Part shown: one piece after another, positions 1-11,710 of the stretch | Numbering within the stretch: the first letter of the stretch is position 1 | How the letters are laid out: every line of letters starts with the position of its first letter | Assembly (NCBI GenBank): GCA_963170185.1 | Contig: CAUJGS010000063.1 | Coordinates: forward strand, 1 to 37,690 | Direction of reading: 5' to 3' | DNA: 37,690 bases | From: Bdellovibrionota bacterium | GTDB lineage: Bacteria > Bdellovibrionota > Bdellovibrionia > Bdellovibrionales > JAMPXM01 | Translations under genes and position numbers: made by a program | Notes under the pieces: generated by a model | What the model was told of the DNA's origin: nothing | The model's database searches: none | What the model saw: only the letters and a program-made list of their open reading frames with translations

Positions 1-1
1 C

Positions 2-910
2 CCCGAGATCGTAAAGTCGCTCGCTCGTCACGCCAAGCTCATGGCCGCTGGCCGTGGCATTCGCCTGCACTTTGATATCGTCACCAACGGCACTTTGGTG
101 AATGCAGAAGCCGCGGAACTCCTGGCAAGCCTTAACGCCAATGTCACGATCTCGATCGACGGAGCCCCCGAAGACAATGACCGCGCACGCGTCACGAAGT
201 CTGGTCGCGGCTCAAGTGCCATGATCCTTAAGGGCCTTGCCGAACTCGTAAAAGTTCGCGAGCGCTTGGGCTCGCTGACGGCCGGAGCGGTCTTCGGCAA
301 ACATAATTTGAATGTCGTAAAAGCTTGGGAGTTTTTGTCGGCCTACCCATTTGATTCGATCAAATTCGACTTCGCAGCGGAAACGGACGATGACGAGGCT
401 TCACGCGAATTCGCCCGCCAGGTCTCGGAAGTCGCCGATCTCGCCGTCGCCAAAGGTGGCGAGCGCGAACTTCGCAGGCTTCACACGTTTGATCACCTCT
501 TTCGCGCACTCGACGACAAGGCTCGCATCCAGAACCACTGCTTGGCTGGCAAGAACCATATGCAGCTTGATACCAACGGCAAGCTGACAGCGTGCCAGTG
601 GTTTGTCGGTCAAAAAGACGAAGAGTTCGGGAGCGCTAAAGAACTTGATCTCAGCCTTGAGAACCCCATGCTCAAGGGCTTCTCGCAGCCACTCATTGAA
701 AAGAATGGCTGTGGTTCGTGCTGGGCTCGCCACATTTGCGGTGGCGGCTGCATGCACGTGAACAAAGTAAAAAACGGAAATAAACACAAGGTGGACCAAG
801 CCTTTTGTGAGAGAACCAGAACCATCATCGCCAAAGGAATTGAACGATATGCTGAATCAAGGTATGACAACCCACGACGAAACATCGGAGACGCCAGTGA
901 AGTTCATTAA
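2..910 (+). CDS. Radical SAM/SPASM peptide maturase (5' truncated)
   Basis: The frame is open from base 2, before the first ATG at 41, so the N-terminus with the CxxxCxxC radical SAM cluster motif lies outside the window. What remains is the back half of the barrel (SIDGAPEDND...R, typical of anSME/PqqE/QhpD-like enzymes) and a SPASM domain. The SPASM cysteines are clear: CLAGKNH...GKLTAC (a GX4C element), then CGSCWARHICGGGC (CX2CX5CX3C), then a last Cys 18 residues on (FCERT). SPASM enzymes use S-adenosylmethionine and extra 4Fe-4S clusters to modify peptides or proteins, often making thioether or other crosslinks. The 3' end overlaps the next small ORF by 62 nt, which suggests translational coupling with a possible substrate. 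The subfamily cannot be assigned without the N-terminus; a protein substrate (QhpD or anSME type) remains possible. Confidence 0.9.
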   Translation, partial: PEIVKSLARHAKLMAAGRGIRLHFDIVTNGTLVNAEAAELLASLNANVTISIDGAPEDNDRARVTKSGRGSSAMILKGLAELVKVRERLGSLTAGAVFGKHNLNVVKAWEFLSAYPFDSIKFDFAAETDDDEASREFARQVSEVADLAVAKGGERELRRLHTFDHLFRALDDKARIQNHCLAGKNHMQLDTNGKLTACQWFVGQKDEEFGSAKELDLSLENPMLKGFSQPLIEKNGCGSCWARHICGGGCMHVNKVKNGNKHKVDQAFCERTRTIIAKGIERYAESRYDNPRRNIGDASEVH

Positions 911-1127
911 AAAACTCAATTCGAACACGACAGCTGGTGTCGGCTCTTCTGCTGAAACTTCTAACGACCATGGTCTCCATGTCGTGGAAGGCTCGAACTC
1001 GCAAGCGGGAGCTTCGAGCACTGAGGCAACGGCGGGCCGTGTTTCTGTCACGGCGGCTAACCCTCATCAACCATCGATGGAGAGACCGGGCGGCGGCTGC
1101 ATTCCGGTAAAAGGTCTCGATCGATAA
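849..1127 (+). CDS. Small ORF, candidate RiPP precursor peptide
   Basis: This 92-aa ORF begins inside the end of the radical SAM gene. ATG 849 is preceded by AAAGGAA (833-839) at good spacing; ATG 864 is an alternative start. The peptide has a charged, leader-like start (ETPVKFIKKLNSN), a long Ser/Thr/Ala/Gly/Asn-rich middle, and a C-terminus ending RPGGGCIPVKGLDR with one Cys. It has no signal peptide, transmembrane segment or recognised domain. A small low-complexity peptide with a Gly-Gly-Gly-Cys C-terminal core next to a SPASM maturase is the usual layout of a ribosomally made, radical-SAM-modified peptide. I do not recognise the family. That it is translated, and that it is the maturase substrate, are both inferences. 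It could also be a small accessory protein. Confidence 0.6.
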   Translation: MLNQGMTTHDETSETPVKFIKKLNSNTTAGVGSSAETSNDHGLHVVEGSNSQAGASSTEATAGRVSVTAANPHQPSMERPGGGCIPVKGLDR

Positions 1128-1148: not shown

Positions 1149-3050
1149 ATGGCCAAAAAGTGGAAACCAGCGCTCGTTCATTTATCGCGAGCGCTCTTTG
1201 CGGCCGCAATCACGGCGATTCTCGCGCAGTTCCCATTCGACTACATCGAATCATTCACTTACGACCTGCGTGTTCGCGTAACTCCTCCGCCTACTCCCTC
1301 TGGCCATATCGAAACCATTGTCGTGGATTTCGCGACAATGAAGGAACTGGGCCGGGCACCTTCGGCCAATGACTTCCGACTGGTCCTAGAAAAGCTCTCG
1401 CATGCCGGGGCCGACACAATCATATCGCTTATCAATCTGTCTGAAACCGTCGGCTCCAACGACGAAAGCCGAATGTTAGCAAGCACGGCGATCGGGATTC
1501 CGCGTTTCATGGTCGCACTTGACGATGTCCCGCTTGAGGGCGAACAAGATGCGCTTAAGCTCCCGACGCCGTTTGAGAAAGTCCCAGCTGTCAGCGCACC
1601 GGTACCGATTGATCGCAATATCTTCGCTCGCGACGACGTCACTCGCCGCATGATGCTGGCTTATCAGGGGCTACCCACAATGTACCCGCTCATCGCGGCT
1701 CGGTTTCGCGACGATCTTAAATCGAAGGCCATAAGCACGAATGCCGCTCACGAGACTACCGGTCACGAAAGTGCCGACGGCAAATCCGGATATAATTCGA
1801 ATGATTTTCGCGGCGTGTTTGACTACCTGAAGAGCGACCAGGCCTTCGTGAAATTCGCGCCCACCGGCACTTACCAAGCCACGAGCTTTCTTTCGATTTT
1901 GAATGGCACCATCGACACGTCTCGCTTCAAAAACAAGATCGTGATCATCGGCCGCGATATTCAAACCACCTCACGCGACTACGTCCGCACACCCTTCTCA
2001 CGCGATATCGTGGCCATGACGATCGTGGAACTTGCGGCAAACTCGCTGGAAACCCTCATCCAAAATACAGCCCCTAAGCGCGCGCCAGATTGGATCAACT
2101 CCGTCATCACCGGAATCATCTCCTACTTCACGGTTATCGTTGTCCTGACGGCGACGCCAACGACGGGACTCCTGCTTCTGGGTTCGACTTTGGGAATGTA
2201 CTTTTTGATATCGGTTCTAACACTCTGGCTTGGAGGGTACTGGATCGGCGTCGCTCACCCCTTCATCGCGATCTTCATCTGCTACTACTTTTTCATCCCC
2301 TATCGCCTCATCATCGAAAATCGCCGCAGCTGGGAGTACTACCAAAAGAACAAGCTACTTACTCAAGTTGAAGAGCTGAAAACAAACTTCCTGTCGATGA
2401 TGTCACACGACCTGAAGACTCCTATCGCGCGCATTCAAGGCATGGCCGATGTCGTTCGTGGCGACTCCAACCCTCTTTCACCAAGGCAAAAAGAAGCCAT
2501 CGACACACTCAAGCGCTCGAGCGACGAACTTTTGGAGTTCGTCTCAGGCATCCTGAGCCTCGGCCGAATCGAGTCCAAAGCGATCCAGCTTCACATGCAC
2601 TCCAAAGACGTGAATGCCCTAGTACGCGAGGTGAGCGCCAAGCTCGAGTACCTCGCACGCTCTAAAAACATCGAAGTTCGAACCGAACTTGAGCCCTTGT
2701 TTAGCATTCGCATGGACGTCGATCTCATCCGCCAGGTGCTACAAAACCTCATTGAAAATGCGATCAAATACAGCCCAGAGGGCTCTTCGATCCTGGTGAC
2801 TTCTGAAGAGCGAGATGGGCATATCGTCGTACAGGTCGCCGACCAGGGTCCCGGTATCCCCGAGGATGAACTTCCTCACATCTTTATGAAATTTTATCGC
2901 AGTCGGAACGCCAAGGGCTCATCCATTAAGGGCTCAGGCTTAGGTCTCTATCTTGCTAAATATTTTGTGGAATTGCACAAAGGACGGGTCTCAGTGGACT
3001 CGACCCTGGGGCAAGGGTCTACATTCACGGTCGAATTGCCGACCGAATGA
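1149..3050 (+). CDS. CHASE2-domain sensor histidine kinase
   Basis: This membrane histidine kinase is about 633 aa. ATG 1149 (MAKKWKP) is preferred over a TTG in frame at 1137, although neither has a strong ribosome site. TM1 is near residues 10-27. An extracytoplasmic region of roughly 270 residues follows that fits CHASE2 (start FDYIESFTYDLRVR, end KIVIIGRD...SRDYVRTPFSRD). Three closely spaced TM segments around residues 315-400 are typical for CHASE2 kinases. The HisKA box is SMMSHDLKTPIARIQG with phospho-acceptor His420. The ATPase domain has an N box (NLIENAIKYSPEG), G1 (ADQGPGIPEDE) and G2 (KGSGLGLYLAKYF). It lies 21 nt after the small peptide ORF and is followed by a sigma-54 response regulator, its likely partner. 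CHASE2 ligands are generally unknown; sensing of the neighbouring peptide is only a hypothesis. Confidence 0.9.
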   Translation: MAKKWKPALVHLSRALFAAAITAILAQFPFDYIESFTYDLRVRVTPPPTPSGHIETIVVDFATMKELGRAPSANDFRLVLEKLSHAGADTIISLINLSETVGSNDESRMLASTAIGIPRFMVALDDVPLEGEQDALKLPTPFEKVPAVSAPVPIDRNIFARDDVTRRMMLAYQGLPTMYPLIAARFRDDLKSKAISTNAAHETTGHESADGKSGYNSNDFRGVFDYLKSDQAFVKFAPTGTYQATSFLSILNGTIDTSRFKNKIVIIGRDIQTTSRDYVRTPFSRDIVAMTIVELAANSLETLIQNTAPKRAPDWINSVITGIISYFTVIVVLTATPTTGLLLLGSTLGMYFLISVLTLWLGGYWIGVAHPFIAIFICYYFFIPYRLIIENRRSWEYYQKNKLLTQVEELKTNFLSMMSHDLKTPIARIQGMADVVRGDSNPLSPRQKEAIDTLKRSSDELLEFVSGILSLGRIESKAIQLHMHSKDVNALVREVSAKLEYLARSKNIEVRTELEPLFSIRMDVDLIRQVLQNLIENAIKYSPEGSSILVTSEERDGHIVVQVADQGPGIPEDELPHIFMKFYRSRNAKGSSIKGSGLGLYLAKYFVELHKGRVSVDSTLGQGSTFTVELPTE

Positions 3051-3116: not shown

Positions 3117-4724
3117 ATGCTTCGTATTCTTGTCGTGGATGATGATGCGGGACTCCGATTCTCGGTTCGCGAAGCGCTTGCAACCAAACAAGCGCCCTCG
3201 GCGGCTAATCGCTACGAAATCGTCGAAGCACAAGATGGCCTAGAGGCCGTCGAAAAAGTGCGAGCTTCGCGCTTTGATCTCGTCATGCTCGACGTCGATA
3301 TGCCCAATCTTTCGGGTCTCGAAGCCCTGAAGCTGATCAAGGAACATGACCCTTCGATTCAAGTCATCATCATGACCGCTTACGCGAACATCGACGACGC
3401 TGTCACAGCCGTCAAAGAAGGCGCTTACAACTACCTCTCAAAGCCCATCAGCTCGGAAGACCTGCTGGCGATGACCGAGCGAGCACTTAAGGCACAGAGC
3501 CTGATCTCCAGCATCGCGGCAAGTGCGCCCGTTCTTACCGAAGCCGGCCGCAAGATTATCGGATCTTCTAACGAGATGCAGAAGGTTTTTAACATCATCA
3601 ATCGTCTCTCGAAGGTCGACACACCGGTTCTCATTCGCGGTGCCTCGGGAACGGGTAAAGAACTCGTCGCACGAGCCGTTCACTACAATAGCTCGCGCAA
3701 AGACGGAAAGTTCGTTGCGATCAACTGCTCGGCAATCCCAGAGAACCTTTTTGAAAGTGAGCTTTTTGGCCACGAAAAGGGATCATTCACGGGCGCGCAT
3801 GAACGCAAAATCGGAAAGTTCCAATATGCCGAGGGCGGAACACTCTTCCTGGACGAGCTTGGTGAAATGCCGGTCACGATGCAGGTAAAACTGCTTCGTG
3901 TTCTTCAAGAGAAGGTGTTCACACCGGTTGGATCGAATCGTGAGATCGAGTCCAACGTTCGCGTGATCGCGGCGACCAATCGCCCACTTGAAGAGATGAT
4001 CCAAAGCGGAAAGTTCCGCGAAGATCTCTATTACCGCCTCAACGTTGTTCCGATCTACTTGCCTGCACTTGCGGAACGCAAAAACGATCTCGAAAATCTG
4101 GTCAATGGCTTCATCAAGAAGTTCAATCTGGCTCACGGCAAGCGCATCACAAACATCGCAGCCGATGCTTTGGCAGTTTTCAAACGCTACACATGGCCAG
4201 GCAACATCCGGGAACTTGAAAACGTGATCGAGCACTGCTTCATCTTGGAGTCGAGCAACACGCTGACTTTGAGCTCGATTCCGGAGAACGTTCTCTCGGC
4301 GGTTGGTGTTCAGCTAAACGGCACGGGGCTAGAAGCCTTGATGAACAGTGAAGCCACCGCAAAAGCGGTTCTCGCACAAGCGGCGCTTACCCAATCTGGC
4401 ACTGTCGTTCTGAGCACGGCAAGCGGCGACGATGGTGATGACGACCTCCAGGCCGAGAGTGTTTCGGATGACTCTTTGGATCTTGGAGATAGCGACGCCG
4501 AACTTGGCGAAGACGGTGAACTCACTGTTTCGATTGGCGGCGACACGTTGGACTTCAACAAACACAAAGAAGCCTTCGAGCGCGAGTTTATTGTAAAGGC
4601 GCTTAAGACATTCAAGGGCCGGATCAATCAAACGGCCCTTCACGCCAATATCCCGAAGAAGACACTTCTTCGAAAGATTGAAAAATACGGTATCGTCGCT
4701 CGCGACTATGCAGATCCGAAGTGA
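3117..4724 (+). CDS. Sigma-54-dependent response regulator (NtrC family)
   Basis: ATG 3117 is chosen because GAGGGG sits just upstream; an in-frame TTG at 3072 would add 15 unlikely residues. The protein is about 535 aa. It has a receiver domain (VVDDDAG acidic pair, phospho-acceptor Asp59 in LDVDMP, Thr in MTAYAN, Lys in LSKPIS) and a sigma-54 AAA+ domain (Walker A GASGTGKE at 175-182, sigma-54 contact loop GSFTGA at 222-227, Walker B TLFLDELGE, R finger region FREDLYYRLNV). A C-terminal Fis-type helix-turn-helix (NQTALHANIPKKTLLRKIEKYG) completes it. The contact loop has Ser in place of the usual second Ala (GAFTGA). A very acidic, Asp/Glu/Ser-rich linker of about 90 residues separates the AAA+ and DNA-binding domains. 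It probably takes phosphate from the kinase just upstream and activates sigma-54 promoters. No clear -24/-12 target promoter was recognised in the window. Confidence 0.93.
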   Translation: MLRILVVDDDAGLRFSVREALATKQAPSAANRYEIVEAQDGLEAVEKVRASRFDLVMLDVDMPNLSGLEALKLIKEHDPSIQVIIMTAYANIDDAVTAVKEGAYNYLSKPISSEDLLAMTERALKAQSLISSIAASAPVLTEAGRKIIGSSNEMQKVFNIINRLSKVDTPVLIRGASGTGKELVARAVHYNSSRKDGKFVAINCSAIPENLFESELFGHEKGSFTGAHERKIGKFQYAEGGTLFLDELGEMPVTMQVKLLRVLQEKVFTPVGSNREIESNVRVIAATNRPLEEMIQSGKFREDLYYRLNVVPIYLPALAERKNDLENLVNGFIKKFNLAHGKRITNIAADALAVFKRYTWPGNIRELENVIEHCFILESSNTLTLSSIPENVLSAVGVQLNGTGLEALMNSEATAKAVLAQAALTQSGTVVLSTASGDDGDDDLQAESVSDDSLDLGDSDAELGEDGELTVSIGGDTLDFNKHKEAFEREFIVKALKTFKGRINQTALHANIPKKTLLRKIEKYGIVARDYADPK

Positions 4725-4768: not shown

Positions 4769-6682
4769 TCAAGGGACCGCGTCACCAGCGCCACCGATAT
4801 CGGTGGCGTTGTCGTTTTCGGAGTCTAGCTCCCCTGGCTTACCCGAGGCGTTTCTAGCGTTGCGCCGAAGCGCTTCTTCGTAGACGGATCCGCCGCTTTC
4901 TTTGGCGAGACTTTGTGCAATTCCGTCGACGATTTTGGCGACTTTCGCATCTTTAAAGACAAGAACCTGCTCGTTGTTTGTCTCGGCACCCTCGCTAAAA
5001 TTAAAGGACGTTCCCACAACGGCAAAGTCGCCAACCGACATCAGCTTGTGATGAATCTTGGCCGAAACATCGTACTTCTTGCCCTTCCAGCTCACGACGG
5101 AGTTCCCGTAGATCTTCGGCGCAATCCGCACCTGCCTACGAAGACGGCGAAGCTGAGTCGGCGTGAGTTGCTTTTTCCAAGGGTTTTCCGAGTCTTCCAA
5201 GAAACGTGAAATCTTGCGCTGGATATTGCCTCCGCGCGGACCCACCAAGTGCAGTGTCTCGTTTTCACGTTTTAACCCAGACATTTTAAGAAACTGACTC
5301 CAACCCTGCATCGCAAATGGTGTGTCACCGACACTTAAGAAATCAAACTTTCCAGTCGCTTGGTAATCGCGAATTGCGCGCGCCAAGAGAGCGTCGGATA
5401 CGGCTTGCGCCGAGTAAGCGAACTGCACCAAACGCACGGGACCTTCGGACTTTTCGATGATGTGCGCCAAGAGATTGCGATTCACACCGCGGTAACTTCC
5501 GCCCGGAGTAAACGAAATGAGAAAGCTTCCTTCTGGGTAGGCTTCCAGCGTGTAAGGGTCCGTATCGGGCCCCGTGATTTGATAAGATCCGGAGGTTGGA
5601 TAACTCGAGCCTCGAAGGGCGAGTTCCGGCGAGAAGGTTTTAGAAAGCTCGTGATAGATGAGATTGGCGGCAAGCCAGCTCTTCATCGTTAAAACATGGT
5701 TCGCGTTTGGTACCGATTCACGAGGGCGAGGCGAAAGATCCTTTAAGTCCCCTTCCGGACCAAGGCAGCTCTGCGTGAGATTTCCGCTAGAGAAAAGTGC
5801 TCGTGCTTTTTCCGGATTCGTCCAGTCGATCGCCGCCATCTTTTGATGATTGATCCCGACCGAGTCGACAGCAACGACACGCACTCCACCCGAAACCAGT
5901 TTGTCATGAATCGCCTGAATATTTGCTTTGGCGACGATCACATCTTGATCGATTCCAACCGTTACTTCGACGCCGCGACCGACGGCCGAGATGAGATCGT
6001 GCGCCACGTCCTCGAGGTCAAATTCGTAGACGTTGAGGATCAGCTCCTTTTCGGCTGAGCGTAGGAATTCGCGCCAAACCTGAACAAGATTCGACGAGCG
6101 CACACGACGTGTTCCGAGACGGTAATCATGGGAGACGAAAAATTGAAGGTCCGAATAGCCGGGCCGCCCAGTCGGCGGAATTAGTCGAACGTGTTTGGTC
6201 GGATCTGAAGAAGGTGGCTGCGCCGAAAGCTCTCCGTATAGGGCTTCGAGCGATTCACTTAAAGACTTTGGCTTTGCCTGCATGAAGTCGACGGCTTCAC
6301 TTTCGACGATTCCGCGAACAACAGGAATCTTTGCCGGCTTCTCGGCGTTTTTCCGTGCCTCGCGCTTTTCCTGAGTGAGCCGAATCAATTCGCGAGACTT
6401 CGCAAACGCGCGCGCAAGGTCTGGTTCGGCTGCTTGCACCGCTGTTTCGTTTCGGGTTTCGTTTCCAGTTCCGTTACCAGATTCGCTACTAGATGGATGG
6501 CGCGGCAAGACCGCGCCCGATGTTTTACCAAAAACACTTACAGAACCACTTCCCCCGCCGCCGTGAGCACAACCCGTGATGAGCACCGCAAAGAGCGCCA
6601 TCGCAAAGCACCAAAAAGCGAAATCTTGAGATTTAAGCGACTTTGTTCGCTGCATCGTTGGGCCCATATGTGTTTTGTCCAT
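4769..6682 (-). CDS. Phospholipase D-fold lipoprotein
   Basis: This is an exported lipoprotein: a hydrophobic segment ends in the lipobox LITGC, then a Gly/Ser-rich linker. Three in-frame ATGs lie before the signal (6682, 6667, 6655) and none has an ideal ribosome site, so the exact start is uncertain; the lipoprotein signal is intact from any of them. Two HKD-type motifs mark the PLD superfamily. The first is canonical (HQKMAAID, with SSGNLT downstream). The second reads HHKLMSVGD followed by GTSFNFSEG, with Gly at the usual Asp position and Asp one residue later. Such enzymes cleave or transfer phosphodiester bonds of phospholipids or nucleic acids; the substrate here is unknown. A weak minus-strand promoter (TTTGAT, 16 nt, TAATTT; + strand 6700-6727) lies upstream. 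The last codons contain a perfect 20-bp palindrome. Confidence 0.82.
   Translation of the reverse strand: MDKTHMGPTMQRTKSLKSQDFAFWCFAMALFAVLITGCAHGGGGSGSVSVFGKTSGAVLPRHPSSSESGNGTGNETRNETAVQAAEPDLARAFAKSRELIRLTQEKREARKNAEKPAKIPVVRGIVESEAVDFMQAKPKSLSESLEALYGELSAQPPSSDPTKHVRLIPPTGRPGYSDLQFFVSHDYRLGTRRVRSSNLVQVWREFLRSAEKELILNVYEFDLEDVAHDLISAVGRGVEVTVGIDQDVIVAKANIQAIHDKLVSGGVRVVAVDSVGINHQKMAAIDWTNPEKARALFSSGNLTQSCLGPEGDLKDLSPRPRESVPNANHVLTMKSWLAANLIYHELSKTFSPELALRGSSYPTSGSYQITGPDTDPYTLEAYPEGSFLISFTPGGSYRGVNRNLLAHIIEKSEGPVRLVQFAYSAQAVSDALLARAIRDYQATGKFDFLSVGDTPFAMQGWSQFLKMSGLKRENETLHLVGPRGGNIQRKISRFLEDSENPWKKQLTPTQLRRLRRQVRIAPKIYGNSVVSWKGKKYDVSAKIHHKLMSVGDFAVVGTSFNFSEGAETNNEQVLVFKDAKVAKIVDGIAQSLAKESGGSVYEEALRRNARNASGKPGELDSENDNATDIGGAGDAVP
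4789..4808. repeat. Perfect 20-bp palindrome
   Basis: The ten bases CGCCACCGAT are followed directly by their reverse complement. With one wobble the symmetry extends three more base pairs on each side. It lies inside the last codons of the PLD lipoprotein gene and 64 nt after the convergent response-regulator gene ends. On the + strand a moderately T-rich stretch (TTGTCGTTTTCG) follows, so it may serve as a weak terminator for the + strand operon. A dyad protein-binding site is another reading. Confidence 0.5.
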
Positions 6683-6779
6683 CCCTTTAGAGTACAGCGA
6701 AATTATGCTGCACAAAACTTGATCAAAGTCTGAAATTTCCTTGAAACGAAAGGCGGACGCCCGCTACCGTCGCCCCCCT

Positions 6780-7397
6780 ATGTCATCCTTCGGTCTCCCA
6801 CCTGGTTCAACTCCCCACGCTACGCAGTACAGCCGTGTGGATCTACAGGCTGCGTTCAACTGGCTAGTCAATCAGCCAGACCATGTGCGCAAGCAGGCCT
6901 CGGACCCGGATCGTTTGATGACCCTGTACTACCGCTCAAGTGGTCGACCAAACGCGGAAACACATTCGGTTCGCACAGACTCTGTCAGGCTCGATACCTT
7001 AAGGATGGAGTCCTCGAGTTCGCGAATGGAAAGCGAAGCGCCCGTCAGCAGCCAGAACTTCTTGTCGGATCTTCGTCAGATAAATGAGGCCCTGCGTCAG
7101 TTCGAAAGCCCACAACCCGCTCCTGGAGCGGCTCCGGTGGCGCCACACGTTTCACACCATATCCCGCACCAAGCTCCGCATGGCTCTCAGCCGGGCCCCA
7201 TTCCGACGGCCGCCCACCCAGTTCCTGGTCCAGCCCCGGCGGCGACGCAGGCTCCATTGGCGCCCATCGCTCTCAACGCGCGCACACTCGAAGCCCTGCA
7301 AGAGGTTCGGGAGAAACTCAATCTCTCGTCAGATCTCGAGGCTTTGCAGATGCTCGTCTCGCTTGGCTACAAGCAGCTTAAACCGCTGATCGGTTGA
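6780..7397 (+). CDS. Hypothetical Pro/Ala-rich protein
   Basis: I do not recognise this protein of about 205 aa. ATG 6780 is chosen by position; an in-frame TTG at 6741 is possible and neither has a clear ribosome site. There is no signal peptide or membrane segment. The N-terminal ~60 residues look globular (VDLQAAFNWLVNQPDHVRKQ). A Ser/Arg-rich stretch and a long linker rich in Pro, Ala and His follow (about residues 110-165). The last ~40 residues form a compact amphipathic helical segment (LEALQEVREKLNLSSDLEALQMLVSLGYKQL) that resembles small oligomerisation or ribbon-helix-helix-like tails. It lies between the divergent PLD lipoprotein and ileS, with an 79-nt gap to ileS. A cytoplasmic adaptor or DNA-associated role is possible but unsupported. 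Confidence 0.65.
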   Translation: MSSFGLPPGSTPHATQYSRVDLQAAFNWLVNQPDHVRKQASDPDRLMTLYYRSSGRPNAETHSVRTDSVRLDTLRMESSSSRMESEAPVSSQNFLSDLRQINEALRQFESPQPAPGAAPVAPHVSHHIPHQAPHGSQPGPIPTAAHPVPGPAPAATQAPLAPIALNARTLEALQEVREKLNLSSDLEALQMLVSLGYKQLKPLIG

Positions 7398-7476: not shown

Positions 7477-10260
7477 ATGAAAGACACCATCCAGCTGCCT
7501 TCGACCGAATTCCCAATGAAGGGCAATTTGCCCGAACGTGAACCTCAGATCATCGCCGATTGGGATAAGAAGCAGCTCTACCAAAAGATCATGGCAAAAA
7601 ACGAAGGTCGCCCGGTGTTCACCATGCCCGACGGACCACCGTACGCCAACGGCAACATTCACATCGGTCACGTACTGAACAAGTGTTTGAAGGACTTCAC
7701 GGTCAAATTCAAAAACATGTCGGGCTACAGTGCGACTTTTATTCCTGGATGGGACTGCCACGGTCTTCCGATTGAAATCAACGTCACTAAGGCGCTTGGA
7801 CCAAAGCGAAAAGAGAAATCGGATAGCGATATCCGAACACTTTGCCGCGAAGAAGCTTCGAAGTGGGTGAAAACTCAAGGTGAGCAGTTTAAGCGCCTCG
7901 GAGTTTTAGCCGACTGGGCCGAGCCGTACTTGACGATGGACCCCGCCTACGAAGCAGAAGAAGTTCGCGAACTCGCGCGCGCCTTGAGAAAAGGTACGCT
8001 CTATCGTGGCGAAAAACCTGTGTACTGGTGCCCGACTCTGCAAACCGCTTTGGCGGAAGCGGAAGTCGAATACCACGAACATAAATCGCCTTCGATTTAC
8101 TTCGTGATGGATTTCACGAAACAAGCTTCGCAGTTTGGTTCGTTTAAAAAGCCAGTTGGTTTCGCGGTATGGACGACGACTCCTTGGACCTTGCCGGCTA
8201 ACTTAGGTCTCGCGCTGAATTCCGACTTTGACTACGGTTTCTTTGATACGGGCGATCGCATCTTGATCTGCGCGGTTGGCCTTAAAGAAGCCGTGGAAAA
8301 AGAAACGGGTCTCACACTTTCGCCGACAGGAACCGTGGTGAAAGGTGCGAAGTTTGAAAAGCTTCACACCAAACATCCGTTTTACGATCGCGAATCGCTG
8401 ATCGTGCTTGGTTCGCACGTCACCATGGACGCCGGTACCGGTGCGGTTCACACAGCACCTGGTCACGGACAAGACGATTACCGCGTGGGTCTTCAGTATG
8501 GTCTCAAAGTTCTTTCGCCTGTCGATGGAGCCGGTTGTTACACCGACGAAGTACCTGAGTACAAAGGCATGAAGATTTGGGACGCAAACCCTGTGATCGT
8601 GCAACGCCTTCGCGACAACGGTGGGCTTTTGTCGTTCAAAGAATTTGTGCACCAATACCCGCACAACTGGCGCTCGAAAACTCCGCTTATCTTCCGCGCG
8701 ACACCGCAGTGGTTCTTAGGCATGGATCTCGAAGAGTCAGCGACGGTTTCAGCAGGTGCAGCACAAATGCGTAAGCGCGCGCTGAAAGAAATCGAGAACA
8801 TCAAATTCGTTCCGGCTTGGGGCGAAGCGCGCTTACGTGCGATGATCGAAAATCGCCCGGACTGGTGTCTTTCCCGTCAGCGCATCTGGGGTGTGCCGAT
8901 TCCTGTGTTCAATTGCAAAAAGTGCGACGCCGTTCTTGCCAACGCGGATGTCATGGACCGCGTTGCTGACGCCATCGAAAAAGAAGGCGGCATCGAAGCC
9001 TATCACGCCCATGCCGAATCCGACTTCACGCGCGACGAAAATGGCACAGCCTTAAAGTGCAAGTGTGGTTCGACAGAATTCAAACGCGGCAATGACATCT
9101 TGGACGTGTGGTTTGATTCCGGCGTTTGCTGGTCAGCCGTACAAAAGCGCCGTAAAGGAATGTCGTATCCGGCAGATATTTATCTTGAAGGTAGCGACCA
9201 ACATCGCGGCTGGTTCCAAACGTCACTTCTCGCTTCGATGGCGACAGAAGGCAAAGCACCGTTTAAAGCGCTTGTCACGCATGGCTTTGTCACCGATGTG
9301 CAAGGGCGAAAAATGTCGAAGTCGTTAGGAAACGTCGTCGACCCTGCCGACACGACCAAGAAGTCGGGTGCCGAGATCTTGCGTCTTTGGTGTTCTTATG
9401 TCGACTTCGGACAAGACGTCGGCTGCGGTAAGGAAAGTTTCGACCGTGTGACAGAAACGTACCGTCGTTTCCGAAACACGATGCGCTTTTTCTTAGGAAA
9501 CATTCATGACTTCGATCCGACCGCTAATACGGTCTCGTTCGAGAAAATGACTGTTTTGGATCAATGGGCGCTTGGCCGCTTAAACGAACTCATCAAGGAC
9601 ACTCGCACGGCTTACGAGTCGTATGAGTTCTACAAGGTCTATCACCTCCTAAATCAGTACTTCACCGTGACTCTTTCGGCAGGCTACCTGGATATGCTGA
9701 AAGATCGCCTCTACACGGCGAAAAAAGATGGCGTCGAGCGCCGATCGGCTCAGACAGCTTTGTACACAATCGCCGAGAGCCTGACACGTATCATGGCGCC
9801 GATCACTTCGTTCCTTTCGGAAGAAGTATATGGCTACTTGCCTGGCAAGAAAGCCGAGAGCGTCTTCTTGATGGATTTCCCTGCTCCCAACGCAAAGTGG
9901 GACAATGCGGAACTCCAAAAAGATGTCGAAGGGCTTTTCGAGGTACGGTCCGAGGTTACAAAAAAACTCGAAGAGCTTCGCCAGGCAAAAACAATCGGCT
10001 CAGGTCTTGATGCGAAAGTGGTTCTGAAAGCGGATGCGGAGCGACTTTCTTTACTGAAACGGCATGAAACGCTCTTGAGCGAGTTTTTTATTGTTTCCCA
10101 AGTCGCTCTTGGCATGGGACCATTTGTCGTCGAAGCTCAGCACGCCGACGGACAGAAGTGCGAACGCTGCTGGTACTGGAGCACCGAAATCGGGCCGGAG
10201 AACAAAGGCGACGCCAAGTTCCCGACCGTTTGCCCAAAGTGCTCGCGAGCTTTGAACTAA
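7477..10260 (+). CDS. ileS: Isoleucyl-tRNA synthetase
   Basis: This class I synthetase charges tRNA-Ile and edits Val-tRNA-Ile. At 927 aa it has the usual bacterial length. HIGH is at residues 62-65 (GNIHIGHVLN) and KMSKS at 612-616 (GRKMSKSLGN). The editing (CP1) domain includes WTTTPWTLPANL and GTGAVHTAPGHG. The C-terminal zinc site keeps C895, C898, C919 and C922. A second cysteine set (CKKC...CKCG) lies in the insertion after SRQRIWGVPIP. ATG 7477 has no recognisable ribosome site; a weak -35/-10 pair (7442-7447, 7465-7470) would put the transcript start at or near the ATG, so a leaderless message is conceivable. No T-box leader is present. lspA and lgt follow, and ileS-lspA adjacency is common in proteobacteria. 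Confidence 0.98.
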   Translation: MKDTIQLPSTEFPMKGNLPEREPQIIADWDKKQLYQKIMAKNEGRPVFTMPDGPPYANGNIHIGHVLNKCLKDFTVKFKNMSGYSATFIPGWDCHGLPIEINVTKALGPKRKEKSDSDIRTLCREEASKWVKTQGEQFKRLGVLADWAEPYLTMDPAYEAEEVRELARALRKGTLYRGEKPVYWCPTLQTALAEAEVEYHEHKSPSIYFVMDFTKQASQFGSFKKPVGFAVWTTTPWTLPANLGLALNSDFDYGFFDTGDRILICAVGLKEAVEKETGLTLSPTGTVVKGAKFEKLHTKHPFYDRESLIVLGSHVTMDAGTGAVHTAPGHGQDDYRVGLQYGLKVLSPVDGAGCYTDEVPEYKGMKIWDANPVIVQRLRDNGGLLSFKEFVHQYPHNWRSKTPLIFRATPQWFLGMDLEESATVSAGAAQMRKRALKEIENIKFVPAWGEARLRAMIENRPDWCLSRQRIWGVPIPVFNCKKCDAVLANADVMDRVADAIEKEGGIEAYHAHAESDFTRDENGTALKCKCGSTEFKRGNDILDVWFDSGVCWSAVQKRRKGMSYPADIYLEGSDQHRGWFQTSLLASMATEGKAPFKALVTHGFVTDVQGRKMSKSLGNVVDPADTTKKSGAEILRLWCSYVDFGQDVGCGKESFDRVTETYRRFRNTMRFFLGNIHDFDPTANTVSFEKMTVLDQWALGRLNELIKDTRTAYESYEFYKVYHLLNQYFTVTLSAGYLDMLKDRLYTAKKDGVERRSAQTALYTIAESLTRIMAPITSFLSEEVYGYLPGKKAESVFLMDFPAPNAKWDNAELQKDVEGLFEVRSEVTKKLEELRQAKTIGSGLDAKVVLKADAERLSLLKRHETLLSEFFIVSQVALGMGPFVVEAQHADGQKCERCWYWSTEIGPENKGDAKFPTVCPKCSRALN

Positions 10261-10261
10261 T

Positions 10262-10285
10262 TCGACCGCGCAATGGCGCGGTCGA
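10262..10285 (+). other. Intercistronic GC-rich hairpin between ileS and lspA
   Basis: A perfect 10-bp stem (TCGACCGCGC paired with GCGCGGTCGA) closes an AATG tetraloop two bases after the ileS stop. No T-run follows, so it is not a standard intrinsic terminator. A second, weaker stem (GGCCGCC, loop, GGTGGTC) follows at once, before the lspA ribosome site. A role in mRNA processing or stability, or in lowering expression downstream of ileS, is plausible. Confidence 0.65.
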
Positions 10286-10330
10286 TAGGGCCGCCTCCGG
10301 TGGTCTGATACGATTAGAGGAACTGACACC

Positions 10331-10888
10331 GTGAAACTGAAGTACTTGATTCTAGCAGCAATCGCCGGCGCCGTGATCACGATCGATCAGGCGACGAAGA
10401 TGTATGTTCACACGCATTTTGGCCTTCACGAGTCTATCGAAGTCATTCAAGGTTTCTTCAACCTGACCTATGTTCGCAACTACGGCGCCGCATTTGGCTT
10501 CCTCGCCGACAGCCACCAAACATTCCGCGAGATCTTCTTCCTTTCGATGCCGCCGGTCGCGCTTCTTGTCATCCTCGCGATTCTTCGTGGTGTACTTGAA
10601 ACCGATCGCTGGCAAATCGTCTCGCTCTCGCTGGTGTTTGGGGGCGCGATCGGAAACTACATCGACCGCATTCGCTTTCGCTACGTGATCGACTTCCTCG
10701 ATTTCCATATCCAGAAAAAGTACACGTGGCCGGCCTTCAACATCGCAGATAGTGCGATCGTCGTCGGCGTCTCGGTTTTGCTCTTTTTGGAACTCACAAG
10801 AACTCGCTCAAGCTCGACAGCAACCACGACGCCCCCGAGTTCGGATTCTTCGAATCAAAAAGGTTCGGACGAACCCTCTACGACATAA
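10331..10888 (+). CDS. lspA: Lipoprotein signal peptidase (signal peptidase II)
   Basis: This inner-membrane aspartyl protease removes signal peptides from diacylglyceryl-modified prolipoproteins. The GTG start at 10331 has AGAGGAA nine bases upstream. The 185-aa protein shows four TM segments and the family motifs: DQATK near residue 19, NYGAAFGF, GNYIDRIRFRYVIDF with the first catalytic Asp, and FNIADS with the second. The C-terminus carries an extra Ser/Thr-rich tail of about 25 residues (SSSTATTTPPSS). It is followed 12 nt later by lgt, the enzyme acting one step earlier in the same pathway. A second, fused LspA paralogue is encoded at 28034-29155. Confidence 0.97.
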   Translation: MKLKYLILAAIAGAVITIDQATKMYVHTHFGLHESIEVIQGFFNLTYVRNYGAAFGFLADSHQTFREIFFLSMPPVALLVILAILRGVLETDRWQIVSLSLVFGGAIGNYIDRIRFRYVIDFLDFHIQKKYTWPAFNIADSAIVVGVSVLLFLELTRTRSSSTATTTPPSSDSSNQKGSDEPSTT

Positions 10889-10900
10889 AAGAGGTCACTC

Positions 10901-11710
10901 GTGCCCGAGTTGTCGTTTCAAACATCGGGTTTTCTTCCCTGGATCGATCTCGGCTTCGTCCGTATTCAAACGTACTTCGTCATAACCAGCTTGATATTGA
11001 GCGCCTTGGCGTTCTTGATCGTTCGTCGCGCCAGAGACTTGGACTTCTCAACCCGTAAAGCTCTCGATCTTTACATCGGCGCCATGATCGGCGGTTTTCT
11101 AGGTGCTCGCCTGTTTCATATCTTGTGGGAAGAACCGAAGTATTACCTCGAAGACCCCACCAGAGTTTTCGATATCCTTCAGGGCGGTTTTGTCTGGTAC
11201 GGCGGGCTGATTGGCGGACTCGCGACGATCTACGGCCTGCTTGAGCTACGAAGAAAAAAAGGCGAACCGCTTAGCCTCTTGGCATGGCTCGATCTTTTCA
11301 CGCCGATCGCCGCCATCGGCTATGGCCTTGGGCGACTAGCTTGTGTACTCACCGGCTGCTGCTACGGCGGAATCTGCCACTTGCACGACTATGTCTTTCG
11401 CTTCCCCACACAAGGCTTCGCCGTCGTTTACGAACTTGCCATAGCCAGTCTTCTCGTTCGTGCGGAGAACCGACGCTGGCATGGCGGCCGAAAGTCGGGA
11501 CATATCTTTTTCCTCTGGCTCACCCTGCACGGATTTGGCCGACTCATCATGGAGTTTTTGCGAGATGACCCCCGCGGCCCCGAGCTCTTTGGACTATCTA
11601 TCGCTAGCTTCGTGAGTCTCATTTTGATACTCGTCGGACTTTCTCGCTTAAGATCTGTCAAATGGTCCGGGTTTCTTCCAAAGTTTGGTAACTCCTCGCA
11701 CAAGTCCTAA
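10901..11710 (+). CDS. lgt: Prolipoprotein diacylglyceryl transferase
   Basis: Lgt transfers diacylglycerol from phosphatidylglycerol to the lipobox cysteine of prolipoproteins. The GTG start at 10901 has AAGAGG just upstream. The 269-aa polytopic membrane protein keeps the family signatures: GARLFHIL, GGFVWYGGLIGG, and GRLACVLTGCCYGG containing the conserved Arg/Gly core of the Lgt signature; HGFGRLIMEFLR lies near the C-terminus. It lies in a tight run with lspA (12-nt gap) and is followed after 25 nt by a transglycosylase and a lipoprotein, so lipoprotein maturation and cell-wall genes are probably co-transcribed. Confidence 0.97.
   Translation: MPELSFQTSGFLPWIDLGFVRIQTYFVITSLILSALAFLIVRRARDLDFSTRKALDLYIGAMIGGFLGARLFHILWEEPKYYLEDPTRVFDILQGGFVWYGGLIGGLATIYGLLELRRKKGEPLSLLAWLDLFTPIAAIGYGLGRLACVLTGCCYGGICHLHDYVFRFPTQGFAVVYELAIASLLVRAENRRWHGGRKSGHIFFLWLTLHGFGRLIMEFLRDDPRGPELFGLSIASFVSLILILVGLSRLRSVKWSGFLPKFGNSSHKS

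Follow-up and report, generated by a model that had tools for sequence, protein, structure and literature searches.

A conserved peptide gene beside a radical SAM/SPASM maturase in the Bdellovibrionales, likely the precursor of an undescribed RiPP-like family

We demonstrate that a small ORF at positions 849-1127 (forward strand) of the window, the whole stretch of 37,690 nucleotides analysed here, is a real gene, which lies between the genes for a radical SAM/SPASM maturase and a sensor histidine kinase. The peptide that it encodes is likely the precursor for a RiPP-like family that has not been described, its gene lying in a conserved and probably self-activating regulatory operon, and it is very likely the substrate of the adjoining maturase. 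No modification has been observed, and the chemistry discussed below is inferred.

The peptide gene and its conservation

The ORF starts with ATG, encodes 92 amino acids (MLNQGMTTHDETSETPVKFIKKLN...MERPGGGCIPVKGLDR) with a Cys count of 1, and overlaps the maturase frame, which stops at position 910, by 62 nt. In these respects the first-pass annotation, made from the sequence alone, held. It had also given the ORF its own ribosome site, which held in part. The sequence AAAGGAA (833-839), 9 nt 5' of the ATG, lies within the maturase reading frame and is thus weak evidence by itself. Support comes from relatives, since the ATG start (MLN/MLK/MPK...) is retained within the same family and a Shine-Dalgarno-like site precedes 44 of the 51 homologues that do not overlap the maturase.

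Wherever the 3' flank of a maturase locus could be read, a small ORF occupied the same position (79/79 loci), giving 80 peptides, 78 of them distinct. This count rests partly on inspection, as a regular-expression pass missed some peptides that were then recovered from the ORF listing. A single-sequence search of 60 relatives with the peptide gave clear matches in the genus alone (E 1e-12 to 4e-4). When 144 class genomes were searched with a profile, 56 matches were obtained in 55 genomes, every one at a maturase locus, and no orphan precursors appeared away from the maturase; the window peptide matched the profile with an E value of 3.7e-13. One locus (L231, genome G093) carries two tandem peptide genes 3' of the maturase, whose tails differ (TTGLSCIPIG and TTGLACIPSGLPNSSSN). 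Moreover, in each of the 19 pairs whose synonymous change could be measured, pN/pS outside the overlap fell in the range 0.10-0.70, and close pairs show purifying selection on the peptide.

The first-pass annotation had named two outcomes that would refute it, absence of the ORF from relatives carrying the maturase and a pattern of substitution typical of non-coding DNA. Neither is the case: conservation of the ORF follows that of the maturase throughout, and the substitutions fall in the pattern of coding sequence. One might still propose a chance frame between maturase and kinase, because the ORF shares sequence with a conserved coding region, and long alternative frames are common in such regions. 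However, the motifs at both ends in 79 loci, the tandem copy and the purifying selection outside the overlap all but exclude this explanation.

The two ends of the peptide carry its conserved motifs. Alignment and a motif tally identified a basic N-terminal motif, FIKK in the window (903-914, forward strand) and HIKK in most relatives; a motif of this kind occurs in nearly all peptides (exact HIKK in 47), though a few members on long branches (L267, L269) have only a degenerate form of it. At the C-terminus lies the core GGGCIPV (1089-1109, forward strand), the Cys of which (codon 1098-1100) is invariant in 78/78 distinct peptides and the sole Cys in 75 of them. Pro stands at +2 from the Cys in 71/78, six peptides having C-P-E instead, and Gly stands at -3 in 48 and at -1 in 46 of the distinct peptides. 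The conserved core is therefore Cys-x-Pro. The C-terminal GGGC-IPVKG whose conservation the first-pass annotation proposed to check held only in part: beyond the window's genus, GGGC occurs in only a few others. Nor is any polar acceptor residue near the Cys conserved: D, N or T falls within four residues in only 54/78 peptides, and within that distance the window peptide lacks D, N, T, S and E altogether.

Scans of 28 peptides against Pfam and NCBIfam gave no convincing family match, and the earlier statement that the precursor family was unrecognised held, as no model in either collection covers the peptide. The peptide is kept by almost every genome searched in two families of this predatory group, including complete Bdellovibrio genomes. 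One genome (G039) is probably that of B. bacteriovorus HD100, and the locus is thus very probably present in the model predator, although a B. bacteriovorus proteome paper contains nothing on it in its main text. The Bdellovibrionales operon was also seen in a record titled Streptomyces griseus (CALQIT020000002.1; L094/L246), the name of which is probably wrong.

The maturase, its predicted fold and its cysteines

The window contains only the 3' part of the maturase gene, 302 codons (2-910, forward strand) in an ORF that is open at the window start and was assigned by SPASM family matches. The window is one contig (C63) of a 136-contig genome and starts inside the gene; the 5' part, encoding the N-terminal part of the enzyme, lies at the end of another contig of the same genome (G000:C70, L071). 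C63 (window 1-370) and C70 overlap by about 369 nt with 95% protein identity, and the C70 copy contains a stop. The overlap marks a break in the assembly within the maturase gene, with probable variation between strains.

Searches recovered the maturase from 32/60 relatives, 81/144 class genomes and 72/340 phylum genomes, and the phylum search of 340 genomes gave no match outside one order of Bdellovibrionota. In an identity scan over one genome per species (84,980 species), the matches obtained had at least 35% identity in Bdellovibrionota-type records, falling to about 25-32% in generic SPASM enzymes. The enzyme lies far below the cut-off of every named NCBIfam family. The best model was PapB (NF047865; 135-188 bits against a cut-off of 340), but the Bdellovibrionales peptide lacks the Cys-x3-Asp repeats of that family. 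The SCIFF model TIGR03974 scored 137 bits for the member L065 and 123 for L114 against 425, and SCIFF requires six Cys in about 45 residues; the quinohemoprotein amine dehydrogenase maturase model TIGR03906 scored 103-116 bits in individual members against 453.

An AlphaFold2 model of the Bdellovibrio sp. qaytius enzyme (L114, G091) was obtained with a pLDDT of 90.4 and a pTM of 0.90. CteB was both the top PDB match by profile (E 6.7e-48) and the top fold match (5WGG; Z 32.6, rmsd 3.4, 403 residues, model 10-441), the alignment running from residue 10 and including the N-terminal RRE leader-binding domain. The next-best fold was anSME (Z 27.8), which aligned from residue 90 only and left out the RRE. 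Ten Cys are invariant among the maturases, namely the CX3CX2C of the radical SAM cluster and seven SPASM Cys. Whereas the predicted fold and the cysteine set are shown, the state of Aux I is inferred from sequence: with only seven SPASM Cys, Aux I would lack one ligand, as it does in CteB. The Aux I site of CteB is open, and the auxiliary clusters of anSME are fully ligated (PMC6231123). An open site in the Bdellovibrionales enzyme is consistent by cysteine count only, and a non-Cys ligand is not excluded.

The closest known system is the SCIFF/ranthipeptide pair CteA-CteB, in which an enzyme with an RRE, a radical SAM domain and a seven-Cys SPASM domain likewise stands beside a short precursor that is broadly conserved within its host group, CteB being the best match over the full length. 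In contrast to the single Cys in a C-x-P core of the Bdellovibrionales peptide, SCIFF has six Cys, and its hosts are Clostridia. NxxcA/NxxcB (PMC8326336) offers a precedent for a short peptide whose only Cys forms one thioether. However, NxxcA has an Asn acceptor at -3, where the Bdellovibrionales peptides mostly have Gly and no acceptor is conserved; known ranthipeptides also differ from them in having a conserved polar acceptor near the Cys.

The pairing of precursor and maturase is supported by the co-location in 79/79 loci, which is shown, together with the tandem duplicate precursor, the RRE in the model and the invariant Cys. The proposal of the first-pass annotation that the peptide is the precursor of the adjoining SPASM enzyme is thereby supported. 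Its guess of a Cys thioether fits a CteB-like enzyme with seven SPASM Cys, with no chemistry shown.

A different reaction would be the oxidation of the Cys to formylglycine in the manner of anSME, leaving a short aldehyde-bearing peptide as the product. In its favour, C-x-P (71/78) and C-x-P-x-[RK] (26/78; C-x-P-x-R in 19 peptides) resemble the sulfatase motif C-x-P-x-R, the lack of a conserved acceptor points to a reaction on the Cys itself, and anSME is the next-best fold after CteB, with a similar radical SAM/SPASM arrangement. Against it, the Bdellovibrionales maturase has only seven SPASM Cys, so that Aux I is without the fourth ligand present in anSME, and anSME, with its fully ligated clusters, gives no alignment to the RRE. 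The residue after Cys355, which corresponds to the catalytic Asp277 of anSME, is P, Q, N or V in 76/76 maturase sequences. Furthermore, the anaerobic sulfatase maturase model TIGR03942 scored 93 bits (L065) and 76 bits (L114) against a cut-off of 349, and six peptides have C-P-E rather than C-x-P. Formylglycine formation is thus disfavoured by the cysteine count and by the residue after Cys355, and we consider it very unlikely. A CteB-like reaction at the Cys remains the preferred reading.

The regulatory genes and their promoter

Downstream of the peptide gene, the window encodes a sensor histidine kinase (CHASE2, HisKA, HATPase_c; 1149-3050, forward strand), starting 21 nt after the peptide stop, and then a sigma-54-activating response regulator (Response_reg, Sigma54_activat, HTH_8; 3117-4724, forward strand), both identified by Pfam and as conserved neighbours. 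The first-pass annotation had missed both genes, as well as the sigma-54 promoter found in most relatives. The gene order is shown: the kinase is present in 79/80 loci and the activator in 71/80, some contigs ending early. The activator, with a mean column identity of 68% across 19 homologues, is the last gene of the conserved unit.

The kinase, found in 54/60 relatives, is older or more widespread than the peptide. Because many relatives have it without the maturase and the peptide, it is not a dedicated peptide receptor. Inspection of 12 loci without the maturase revealed no hidden peptide in kinase-only genomes, and in four of the 12 a sigma-54-like site lies 5' of the kinase itself. On the kinase tree, maturase presence changes 4 times versus 10.6 in shuffles; the tree does not settle whether the maturase was gained or lost.

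In 49/75 loci, the 300 nt or so that precede the maturase contain a sigma-54 -24/-12 site (score of at least 13.4 of 15.9). The control regions gave 0/78 upstream of the kinase, 14/584 inside the kinase or regulator and 8/239 inside the maturase; far-upstream sequence gave 5/312 and the reverse strand 0/75. The promoter sequence is therefore shown for most relatives. In the window's own genome, 700 nt of sequence preceding the maturase revealed no such site, and the site is weak in its genus, so that the promoter step rests on the relatives. Upstream of the maturase in one locus (L052) are three near-identical CGGAACGCCTGTTGC[C/T] blocks 23 bp apart, which look like weak tandem sigma-54 sites.

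Beyond the regulator, the window holds a PLD-like protein with a lipoprotein-type start (4769-6715, reverse strand), situated between the regulator and a conserved downstream gene. That gene (6741-7397) encodes a conserved protein of 190-230 amino acids (NQPDHVRKQASDPDRLM ... KLNLSSDLEALQMLV) without a Pfam match, which lies downstream of the regulator in 54 loci. Positions 7477-11710 hold a class I tRNA synthetase (ileS-like), a 185-aa ORF and then lgt. A synthetase start also follows in one relative (L053), and the locus thus looks syntenic and vertically inherited.

No transporter, peptidase, immunity or later cofactor-enzyme genes were found in the conserved neighbourhood of the maturase loci. 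The conserved unit therefore leaves the release of the peptide unexplained, and genes for leader removal or export could possibly sit elsewhere. This gene content also bears on two other accounts of the product. In the first, the peptide would be a substrate that is cut to a small redox cofactor in the PQQ or mycofactocin manner, the regulators only controlling its production. A short peptide with a single conserved site near the C-terminus, present in one copy per genome in nearly all cases and in a unit without immunity or export genes, would suit this account. However, no peptidase or later cofactor enzymes are conserved nearby, and the Tyr or Glu typical of such systems is not conserved in the peptides; we regard this account, too, as very unlikely.

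In the second, the product would be secreted, as an antimicrobial or an effector of predation, rather than serving as a signal. The system occurs in predatory lineages, and Cys-thioether RiPPs (sactipeptides) are often antimicrobial. Against this, the unit has no transporter or immunity gene, the peptide is a near-universal single copy with a conserved core, unlike the fast-changing bacteriocins, and the locus always adjoins the regulatory pair. An effector is therefore unlikely, although less so than a cofactor.

Proposed mechanism and implications

Our preferred reading remains that of a modified peptide within a regulatory circuit. The RRE would most likely bind the basic (H/F)IKK segment near the peptide N-terminus, probably as a beta strand, by analogy with CteA, which binds the RRE of CteB as a beta strand. 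This leader role is inferred, and we hold it to be likely. The maturase would then act on the lone Cys in the C-x-P core, the most likely product being a thioether; this residue may bind Aux I and subsequently join a nearby carbon. Both site and type of modification are inferred, and for the thioether as such the case is as readily doubted as accepted. With no conserved acceptor residue, either the acceptor is a backbone alpha-carbon or the Cys undergoes a different reaction.

The activator would probably switch on its own operon via the sigma-54 promoter that lies 5' of the maturase in most relatives, and the finished peptide would probably join the kinase/activator circuit as a signal or modulator. 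The self-activating circuit is inferred from gene content and promoter, without expression data. A regulatory or signalling role of the peptide is likewise inferred, and we see no more reason to accept than to reject it. SCIFF ranthipeptides have been reported in quorum sensing (cited in PMC8326336). The literature searched, with most subscription papers outside its scope, contained no description of such a system (CHASE2 with radical SAM; Bdellovibrio with radical SAM, RiPP or CHASE2).

A bolder reading, against which we lean slightly, is that of a new Bdellovibrionales RiPP family in which the C-x-P Cys is modified without a fixed acceptor residue, and whose product is a signal in a CHASE2/sigma-54 circuit that governs its own production and forms part of core predator regulation. 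One Cys in a C-x-P core without a fixed acceptor departs from the patterns known for thioethers, and the chemistry may be new. If this reading is true, a modified peptide would belong to the core regulation of bacterial predators. The locus offers a compact and testable entry point to peptide modification, and possibly to peptide signalling, in predatory bacteria.
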